Source of the DNA: Thermodesulfovibrionales bacterium
Lineage (GTDB): Bacteria > Nitrospirota > Thermodesulfovibrionia > Thermodesulfovibrionales > Dissulfurispiraceae
Assembly (NCBI GenBank): GCA_026415695.1
Contig: JAOAGP010000056.1
Coordinates: forward strand, 1-45,238
Reading direction: 5' to 3'
Length of the DNA stretch: 45,238 nt
Part shown: positions 12,182 through 43,701 of the stretch, in pieces
Position numbering within the stretch: the stretch's first letter is position 1
Layout: the number at the start of each line of letters is the position of its first letter
The notes under the pieces: model-generated
Told to the model about the DNA's origin: nothing
Database searches by the model: none
What the model saw: only the letters and a program-made list of their open reading frames with translations
Translations under genes and position numbers: made by a program

Positions 12182-13098
12182 TAACTAACATAGGTCAACC
12201 ACTTTTTATATTTAGGAACTCTACCTTTTACTATCTCAAAGAATGCGTTTTGTAGTTTCTTGGTAATCGGACCTGCCTTGCCTTCACCAATAACCCTGTT
12301 GTCAACCTCTCTAATGGGTGTTATCTCTGCAGCTGTGCCAGTAAAGAATGCCTCATCAGAGATATAAACCTCATCTCTTGTGAATCTCTCTTGTAAGGCT
12401 ACAATGCCCAAGTCTTTTGCTATCTCAATAACGCTGTCACGAGTTATGCCTTCAAGTATGGAAGTAAGAGGGGTTGTTTTAAGGATACCATTTCTTACGA
12501 TGAAGATGTTTTCCCCACTTCCTTCAGATACAAAACCTGATGTATCAAGCAAGAGTGCCTCATCGTAGCCGTTAGATATTGCCTCTTTCTTGGCAAGTTG
12601 TGAATTTACATAGTAACCCGATATCTTCCCCCTACACATATTGGAATTGACATGGTTTCTTATGAAGGACGATATCTTCACCCTTATACCGTTATTAAGT
12701 CCTTCTTCGCCAAGATACGCACCCCATGGCCATACTGCGATGACAACATTGATAGGATTACCTTTTGGGTAAAGCCCCATTGCACCATAACCAATAAACG
12801 CAATAGGTCTTATGTAGCATTCCTTTATTGAGTTTATCTTTATCGTTTGTATAATAGCCTGTTTTATTTCATCTGGGCTAAATGGTATCTCTAATAAAAA
12901 TATCTTTGCTGATTGAAATAGTCTGTTTACATGCTCATCTAATCTAAATACTGCGGGACCGTCTTGAGTATCGTAACATCTAATCCCCTCAAAAACACCT
13001 AAACCATAATGCAAAGAATGACTCAACACATGCACCTTTGCATCATCCCAATTTACAAACTTACCATCCATCCATATTTTATCTGTCTTGTTTATCAT
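12181..13098 (-). CDS. ilvE: branched-chain amino acid aminotransferase
   Basis: 305 residues, the usual length for class IV PLP aminotransferases. It transfers the amino group between Leu/Ile/Val and glutamate, the last step of synthesis or first step of breakdown. Landmarks are the N-terminal [15 protein letters not shown] block, the PLP lysine Lys158 in [18 protein letters not shown], and the phosphate-binding [10 protein letters not shown] and GTAAEITPI segments near the C-terminus. No signal peptide is present, so it is cytoplasmic. It lies 53 bases downstream of the DRTGG/BioD-like gene on the same strand, suggesting an operon with the ADP-forming acyl-CoA synthetase and raising the possibility of a catabolic role. 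D-amino acid transaminase is a less likely alternative. Confidence 0.93.
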
Positions 13099-13151
13099 AG
13101 TCGGCTATTGTATCATTATGTATGAAAGTGTTGCAAGGAATTTAGAAACAT

Positions 13152-39076: not shown

Positions 39077-39106
39077 ATGAAATTCTAAATAGATTTTTGT
39101 TAAAAT
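39077..39106 (+). promoter_or_regulatory. possible promoter adjoining the second livH ATG
   Basis: TAAAAT (39101-39106) is a good -10 box, ending 5 bases before the ATG at 39112; ATGAAA (39077-39082) is a fair -35 at 18-base spacing. If used, the mRNA would begin at or next to the start codon. No ribosome site is visible. Confidence 0.35.
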
Positions 39107-39111
39107 CTGTC

Positions 39112-40014
39112 ATGTTTATTCAACAAATCATCAATGGATTAACACTTGGAAGTGTCTATTCCCTGATTGCTCTTGGTTATACTATGGTTTATGGCATACT
39201 TGAATTCATCAATTTTGCACATGGCGAGATATACATGATTGGTGCTTATTTGGGAATAATCTTTTTGACATTCTTTACTGCAGTAGGACTTACAACCTCA
39301 AACATATATCTTTCATTGTTTCTGACTATGATCCTTACAATAGCCTTTTGCTGTGCCTACGGCTATTTGATTGAAAGGGTAGGTTATAGACCGTTAAGGT
39401 ATGCGCCACGACTAAGTCCTTTGATTAGTGCCATAGGCATATCCATATTTTTACAAAACTTTGTGATGTTTACACAAGGGGCTACGGACAAGGTTATAAG
39501 GGTTGAAGCACTTGATGGATTTGTCAGTGTTTGGGGTATAAATTTAAGTTATCTTCAGGTGGCAATCCTCACAGTTTCCTTTGTAGTCATGATTGGACTA
39601 AACCTTTTTGTAAATAAGACTAAAATAGGAACAGCCATGAGAGCAACTGCTCAAGACAAGATAATGGCGTCATTGGTGGGGATAGATATTAACATGATAA
39701 TCTCCCTCGTATTTGTGGTTGGTGCAGGGCTTGCATCAGTTGCAGGTGTGATGGTGGCTGGTTACTATGGACTTGTAAATTATCACATTGGTTATATCGC
39801 TGGACTTAAGGCTTTTACGGCAGCTGTGTTGGGAGGCATCGGCAGTATCCAAGGTGCTATGATTGGGGGACTTATACTTGGAATCGTTGAGACCCTCGGC
39901 TCTGCTTATGTTTCAAGTGATTATAAGGATGTGTATGCCTTTTTAATCTTGATTGTGGTTTTACTAATCAAACCCACAGGACTATTAGGGCAGAGGATTG
40001 AAGACAAGATATGA
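39112..40014 (+). CDS. livH: branched-chain-type ABC transporter permease LivH (cluster 2)
   Basis: 300 residues, about eight membrane helices. MFIQQIINGLTLGSVYSLIA is the canonical LivH opening, followed by GYTMVYGILEFINFAHGEIY, the fully conserved N-F-A-H-G motif. TAQDKIMASLVGIDIN is the coupling helix and AAVLGGIGSIQGAMIGG the C-terminal signature. It is closer to the textbook LivH than the cluster 1 copy. ATG 39112 was chosen over a TTG five codons earlier because the family begins here. It overlaps livM by 4 bases, and no binding protein gene accompanies the cluster. Confidence 0.94.
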   Translation: MFIQQIINGLTLGSVYSLIALGYTMVYGILEFINFAHGEIYMIGAYLGIIFLTFFTAVGLTTSNIYLSLFLTMILTIAFCCAYGYLIERVGYRPLRYAPRLSPLISAIGISIFLQNFVMFTQGATDKVIRVEALDGFVSVWGINLSYLQVAILTVSFVVMIGLNLFVNKTKIGTAMRATAQDKIMASLVGIDINMIISLVFVVGAGLASVAGVMVAGYYGLVNYHIGYIAGLKAFTAAVLGGIGSIQGAMIGGLILGIVETLGSAYVSSDYKDVYAFLILIVVLLIKPTGLLGQRIEDKI

Positions 40015-42574: not shown

Positions 42575-42610
42575 AATGAATTGTTACTTTTTATAATACA
42601 AAAAAAATTA

Positions 42611-42639
42611 TTGACAAATATATAAATAAGTGTTATAAA
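42611..42639 (+). promoter_or_regulatory. strong sigma70-type promoter abutting the pilM ATG, with a dyad
   Basis: TTGACA (42611-42616) is a perfect -35, and TATAAA (42634-42639) lies exactly 17 bases later. The ATG starts at 42646, so the predicted transcription start falls on the start codon. A palindrome AGTGTT-ATA-AACACT (42629-42643) covers the -10 box and is a candidate repressor site. Confidence 0.7.
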
Positions 42640-42645
42640 CACTGC

Positions 42646-43701
42646 ATGCTATTTAAGAAAAGTCAGACAATTGGGTTAGATGTAGGTTCAGGATACATAA
42701 AATTAGTGCGTATCAATGAAACGAAAACCGGTCAAGAATTGTCCTTATTTGATTTCATAGCAACACCACATGGGGCAATAGTTGACGGTATCATTGAAGA
42801 TAGAAGTCTTGTAGTTCAAGCAATACAAGAGCTCCTTGCAAAAAATAAGATTAAAGATGCTGATGTGGTTACTGCCGTTGCTGGTCATTCATCTGTAATA
42901 GTTAAAAGGATAACAATTCCCAAGATGTCTGAAGAAGAACTATCAAAATCAATAAAGGTAGAGGCAGAACAGTATATCCCATTTGATATAAACGATGTTA
43001 ATATTGACTTTCAGATTTTGGGTGATAGCAAGTTTGAAGCAGGTCAGATGGATATTATCCTTGTTGCTGCGAAGAAGAATGTATTAAACGACTACGCGGA
43101 GGCATTAGAAACAACAGGACTTACTCCAGTGGTAATTGATGTTTGTCATTTTGCAGTAAGCAATGCATTTGAATTTAGCTATGGTGTTTTGGACAATGAG
43201 TGCATAGCACTTGTAAACATAGGTGCAAATTCCACAAATCTTATAATCGTAAAAGGTGGATATTCGCTTTTTACAAGGGATACACCGATTGGGGGAAATG
43301 TTCATACAGAAGCATTAATGAGTGATCTGAATCTTACTCTTGAGGATGCCGAAAGGGCAAAGAGAGGATTGTCCGTTGAGGGTATTAGTCCGGAGCAAGT
43401 AAACCAGATTATACTAAACTCAAGTGAAGAGATATTCTCTGACATACAAAGGTCAATGGATTTCTTTAGAAGCAGTATAAGCGATGAGGAGATTACAAAG
43501 ATAGTTTTAAGTGGTGGGTTAGCACTAACAAATGGTTTCAAAGAAACACTGGCAGAAAGGGTTTTGATGCCAGTTGAGCTGCTTGACCCTTTTAAAAATT
43601 TGGCCATAAACCCGAAGCTTGATGATAAGTTTATAAAAGACATGGCTCCAATTGGTGTTGTAGCTACAGGATTGGCTATGAGAAGGTCAGGAGACAAATA
43701 A
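42646..43701 (+). CDS. pilM: type IV pilus assembly protein PilM
   Basis: 351 residues; an actin-like cytoplasmic ATP-binding protein that links to PilN and aligns the pilus machine. The phosphate-1 loop is IGLDVGSGYIKLVRI (about 9-23), followed by the FtsA-like subdomain with VAGHSSVIVKRITIPKM, the phosphate-2 region (ALVNIGANSTNLIIV) and adenosine loop LSGGLALTNGF. EAEQYIPFDINDV is a PilM hallmark. The promoter ends 6 bases before the ATG, so it may be translated from a leaderless mRNA; no ribosome site is seen. It is first in a pilM-N-O-P operon. Confidence 0.96.
   Translation: MLFKKSQTIGLDVGSGYIKLVRINETKTGQELSLFDFIATPHGAIVDGIIEDRSLVVQAIQELLAKNKIKDADVVTAVAGHSSVIVKRITIPKMSEEELSKSIKVEAEQYIPFDINDVNIDFQILGDSKFEAGQMDIILVAAKKNVLNDYAEALETTGLTPVVIDVCHFAVSNAFEFSYGVLDNECIALVNIGANSTNLIIVKGGYSLFTRDTPIGGNVHTEALMSDLNLTLEDAERAKRGLSVEGISPEQVNQIILNSSEEIFSDIQRSMDFFRSSISDEEITKIVLSGGLALTNGFKETLAERVLMPVELLDPFKNLAINPKLDDKFIKDMAPIGVVATGLAMRRSGDK

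Follow-up and report, generated by a model that had tools for sequence, protein, structure and literature searches.

A conserved promoter abutting the pilM start codon suggests a leaderless pilus operon transcript in the Thermodesulfovibrionales

The pilM gene, which opens a type IV pilus operon in a 45,238-nucleotide stretch of DNA from a Thermodesulfovibrionales bacterium (the whole stretch analysed, hereafter referred to as the window), is preceded by a sigma70-type promoter abutting its start codon. Its transcript very probably begins at the A of the ATG or no more than about 3 nt away from it, with pilM as a leaderless first cistron, in an arrangement that is ancestral and selectively kept and in which a dyad overlying the -10 box is incidental. 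A leaderless pilM mRNA had been proposed in the initial annotation of the window, and the proposal is well supported by comparison of related sequences, namely by the promoter-to-start register kept over 13 families, by a contrast in the occurrence of Shine-Dalgarno (SD) motifs and by the grouping of the promoter-bearing genes in one clade.

Promoter elements and the dyad upstream of pilM

On inspection of the sequence, the region upstream of pilM reads TTGACA-17 nt-TATAAA-CACTGC-ATG at 42611-42648 (Table 1), and no GGAG, GAGG or AGGA is present within the 20 nt 5' of the ATG in the window. The two boxes, the 17-nt spacer, the 6 nt preceding the ATG and the lack of an SD all agree with the initial annotation, in which only the extended -10 TG at 42631-42632 had been overlooked. 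The gene product is a PilM protein of 351 aa, and pilN and pilO come next, adjacent or overlapping, as judged from the list of open reading frames and Pfam. Of the features expected of sigma70 promoters, TTGACA and a -10 box containing A-11 at a spacing of 16-18 nt are present, together with the extended TG, and the T at -7, which is a strong preference and not a strict requirement, is replaced by A; the promoter is therefore termed sigma70-type and not consensus sigma70. A generic promoter scan did not list it because the scan requires T at the sixth position of the -10 box, and the canonical TTGACA-TATAAT-ATG pattern has only two matches in the window's genome. Sigma70 polymerases usually initiate 7 nt past the last base of the -10 box, so that the predicted +1 coincides with the A of the pilM ATG.

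Table 1. Features of the pilM upstream region, in window coordinates
Feature	Position	Strand	Basis
A-tract, proximal UP-element-like, just 5' of the -35 box	42600..42607	+	Sequence; A-rich at -45 to -39 in 40 exact-register relatives
-35 box TTGACA	42611..42616	+	Sequence; TTGACA/T conserved in relatives
Palindrome AGTGTT-ATA-AACACT, perfect 6+6, over the -10 box	42629..42643	+	Probably incidental; absent from relatives, frequent in shuffles
Extended -10 element TGT	42631..42633	+	Sequence; TG at -15/-14 in 37-38 of 40 exact-register relatives
-10 box TATAAA	42634..42639	+	Spacer 17 nt, 6 nt to ATG; T-12 A-11 conserved, A not T at -7
ATG start codon of pilM, coinciding with the predicted +1	42646..42648	+	7 nt past the -10 box; register conserved; +1 deduced from position
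pilM, opening the pilMNO... operon	42646..43701	+	Pfam PilM_2 PF11104, E 1.7e-71

The palindrome spanning the -10 box is present at 42629-42643 as initially annotated, and had been proposed there as the binding site of a repressor. A perfect 6+6 dyad in such a position would suit an operator switching the pilus operon, and it could be specific to this species, but it was detected in none of the relatives' pilM upstream regions, including that of a congener with a 64% identical PilM; lack of conservation in close relatives was the very outcome that the initial annotation had named as counting against its proposal. Moreover, perfect 6+6 dyads with a loop of 0-8 nt arise in 53% of the dinucleotide shuffles of the 74-nt region (11% for a loop of exactly 3), and the window's genome holds one exact and one single-mismatch copy of the palindrome, with 17 matches at two or fewer mismatches against 10 for the reversed control, which is no clear excess. 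Most of the palindrome-like sites examined fall inside open reading frames, and the genome search for the 15-base palindrome, likewise suggested in the initial annotation, yielded no clear set of sites before genes. The dyad is thus neither conserved upstream of the pilM orthologues nor recurrent before other genes; a repressor acting on it is unsupported and is considered highly improbable, and its position over the -10 box is probably a coincidence.

Conservation of the register and exchange with SD motifs

The pilM upstream stretches of 80 related genomes and of the window's own (81 in total) were compared. Many of the relatives are metagenome assemblies. A separate search with an alignment as the query gave 80 named loci, a single-protein query having matched nothing, and the named relatives of the window's pilM are labelled Nitrospirae, Nitrospirota or Thermodesulfovibrionales bacteria; the window itself belongs to the Nitrospirota (Thermodesulfovibrionia/Thermodesulfovibrionales). 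The pilM start used in each genome is the in-frame start beside the conserved PilM domain.

TTGACA/T lies 34-42 nt 5' of the pilM start in 71 of the 81 genomes, representing 13 families (the range admitted, 33-42 nt, was chosen after inspection of the data), and exactly 35 nt before it in 40 genomes of 12 families, with only five further copies of TTGACW elsewhere within 150 nt upstream of pilM in the 81 genomes. The corresponding binomial probability (5e-76) treats the genomes as independent and overstates the significance, as they are related. The conserved -35 box is followed by TGnTA and AT-rich sequence abutting the start codon. Most of the relatives' PilM proteins are about 45-55% identical to that of the window, a level at which unselected spacer sequence should be scrambled; both the promoter and its spacing to the ATG are conserved beyond chance. 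The 40 exact-register sequences share an A-tract at -45 to -39, an invariant TTGAC, a T-run at -20 to -17, TG at -15/-14 and a T-12 A-11 ... A-7 T-6 A-5 element running into the ATG. The start codon is ATG in the window and GTG in two relatives (G064, G073), with the conserved PilM core right after it, and pilM has no usable downstream start, as expected of a leaderless gene. The -10 box is likewise placed for a +1 on or near the start codon, 6 nt separating TATAAA from the ATG in the window and the register being kept in the 71 genomes. A leadered gene would not need this distance to be kept, which supports a leaderless pilM. The TTGACA/T distance of 36-42 nt in some relatives would allow a leader of a few nucleotides there.

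SD-like motifs are found in only 2 of the 71 promoter-bearing pilM genes (and not in the window) but in 7 of the 10 promoter-less ones (Fisher 1e-6, treating related genomes as independent); all ten promoter-less genomes come from the window's own family. A tree was built from 101 PilM proteins, of which 45 are promoter-bearing; 44 of these group in one 64-member clade (SH-aLRT 99), and promoter status changes 7 times as against about 33 in shuffles. Of the seven changes, one is due to a single row from the Desulfuromonadales (L259), seemingly a chance match, and another to a contig with Ns just 5' of the start (L220). The promoter is missing from nearly all outgroup pilM genes, which belong to other Nitrospirota, Desulfuromonadales and Myxococcota. 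Within the limits of this quick, unrooted tree, the promoter-bearing genes are confined to one clade apart from the exception noted; that the promoter was gained once and subsequently lost in places is the simplest interpretation and not proof.

A pilM mRNA that lacks an SD and nevertheless carries a leader was also considered. Transcription would in that case start from a TATAAT at 42592-42597, giving a leader of 42 nt, or read through from the branched-chain amino acid transporter gene that lies 71 nt upstream on the same strand with no terminator found between the two, and the A/U-rich leader would be used with help from, for example, ribosomal protein S1. The TATAAT belongs to a 10-of-12 promoter match (TAGATA-18-TATAAT, ending at 42597), but two such matches were found in the region where 2.1 are expected by chance, and it was rejected as the pilM promoter, being no better than chance. 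A leadered transcript would, in addition, leave unexplained both the TTGACA-to-ATG distance kept over 13 families and the SD in most of the promoter-less genomes, and is regarded as improbable.

From these comparisons, the point at which pilM transcription begins and the way in which ribosomes enter its mRNA may be inferred as follows. The A-tract, the consensus -35 box and the extended -10 element would position RNA polymerase with the housekeeping sigma factor at the pilM ATG, the 5'-terminal AUG of the mRNA would be engaged directly by a ribosome carrying fMet-tRNA, and translation of the downstream cistrons pilN and pilO would be coupled. The arrangement would be ancestral to the pilM genes of most Thermodesulfovibrionales and maintained by selection; in the window's family, most of the pilM genes that lost it bear an SD.

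Related promoters and leaderless starts at other genes

A feature of pilM that counts against a leaderless start is its -10 box, which lacks the T-7 preferred at extended -10 promoters elsewhere in these genomes. A occupies -7 in 32 of the 40 exact-register pilM promoters, and in relatives such as L066, L079 and L086 the -10 is conserved without T-7 (TATTCAT, TATTTAT), with the -35 box, the TG and the A-tract near consensus. In 60 genomes, TTGACA-N14-TGnTAnnnT occurs at 890 sites (control, 58) and TTGACA-N14-TGnTAnnnA at 299 (control, 39). T is present at -6 in 147 of the 299 A-7 sites (summed from the table of counts), and the A-7 T-6 form is therefore not peculiar to pilM. Another view would be that the block TTTTCTGGTATTCATA conserved in the relatives is recognised by a dedicated regulator or an alternative sigma factor, with closeness to the ATG as a by-product, since its -10 is kept in a non-consensus form (A-7, T-6) with a T-run before the TG. 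Such a view is considered very improbable in the light of the perfect sigma70 -35 consensus at 17-nt spacing, the occurrence of A-7 promoters at other genes, ilvE included (299 sites against 39 in the control), and the window's own promoter, which has TATAAA and no T-run.

The ilvE gene (Aminotran_4) was picked because it had appeared in two genomes, and so does not serve as a random control. In most of 30 relatives it lacks an SD and has TGnTATAAAT, and its TTGACA stands about 37-40 nt 5' of the ATG, a distance implying a leader of a few nucleotides at most. The window's ilvE-like aminotransferase gene (13096-13136, minus strand) has TTGCAA-18-TACAAT-8-ATG and no SD, and is a near-leaderless candidate. 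Another observation concerns the branched-chain amino acid permease gene (39098-39114, plus strand), the true start of which is probably ATG 39112 and not TTG 39097; TG-T-TAAAAT lies 5 nt 5' of ATG 39112 and no SD is present.

A genome-wide count was made by mechanical gene calling on about 435 kb of the window's genome (G000, window included) and 400 kb of a second genome (G035), in both of which an SD is present in roughly half of the genes. Among SD-less first genes with an upstream gap of at least 45 nt, a peak of TAnnnT at -12/-11 was found in G035 (23 seen, 6.6 expected) and, weakly, in G000 (11 seen, 5.5 expected); no such peak was found among the SD genes of these stretches. The usual anti-SD is tabulated for the Thermodesulfovibrionia (PMC10783764), so that SD-led and leaderless initiation should coexist. 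On these sequence patterns pilM is not unique, and leaderless initiation seems to be a general trait of the lineage. A more extended proposal, advanced tentatively and with slightly less than even confidence, is that leaderless genes are common in the Thermodesulfovibrionia (possibly between one in ten and one in five of the SD-less first genes) and have long been kept by selection at particular genes such as pilM and ilvE, the pilus operon being thereby linked to conditions in which leaderless translation is at an advantage, set for example by the balance of IF2 and IF3.

Many other promoters of the same pattern precede ATGs that soon meet stop codons and hence are not gene starts; an Rfam scan of eight such promoter loci found only a tRNA. 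Two recurring types were observed. The first, TTGACATATCACAT-N-ATGTGATACACAT, has a spacer with an inverted repeat and occurs in several families (L133, L148, with similar places in G004, G027, G034, G040, G059, G070, G084 and G088); in L133 and L148 a stop directly follows the ATG 3' of the promoter and no Rfam match was obtained, and this promoter may drive an RNA or a more distal gene. The second, roughly TTGACAAG-N-TATATGnTAnTAATTnAGATG, occurs in the window's family (G003, G005, G006, G009, G017 and G021; L136, L140, L141, L143-L145) and is followed only by very short open frames; Rfam gave no match at L141, L143 or L145, the three loci scanned.

Significance and comparison with known systems

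Selection keeping a given gene leaderless is seldom testable, and the pilus operon displays it over 13 families, with the natural losses of the promoter, usually accompanied by an SD, providing a ready-made comparison. Leaderless genes were reported from many phyla in a 2011 survey, the Nitrospirae not being among them (Zheng et al. 2011, PMC3160421), and the present analysis points to leaderless translation as a common mode in this phylum, unlisted by that genome survey. If it is common, both the calling of start codons and the design of expression constructs would be affected in these bacteria, most of which are uncultured. Among the papers searched, none mentions leaderless genes together with pilM, and no transcription-start map for the Nitrospirota was found.

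Like the leaderless genes described by Zheng et al. 2011 (PMC3160421), pilM has a TAnnnT-like box just 5' of an ATG or GTG start and no SD, and the TG preceding the box in several low-GC genomes of that survey is likewise present at pilM. Unlike in that survey, a single orthologue, pilM, keeps the arrangement across an order and with a full -35 box. The promoter resembles sigma70 extended -10 promoters in its TTGACA, 17-nt spacing, TGn before the -10 box and upstream A-tract, and differs from them in a -10 box that reads TATAAA, often TATTCA or TATTTA in the relatives, without T-7. Within the same order it resembles the promoter of ilvE, which shares TTGACA, TGn-TATAAA and the lack of an SD, conserved in many relatives, but in which the distance from promoter to ATG is 3-4 nt longer, so that a leader of a few nucleotides, and not none, is expected.
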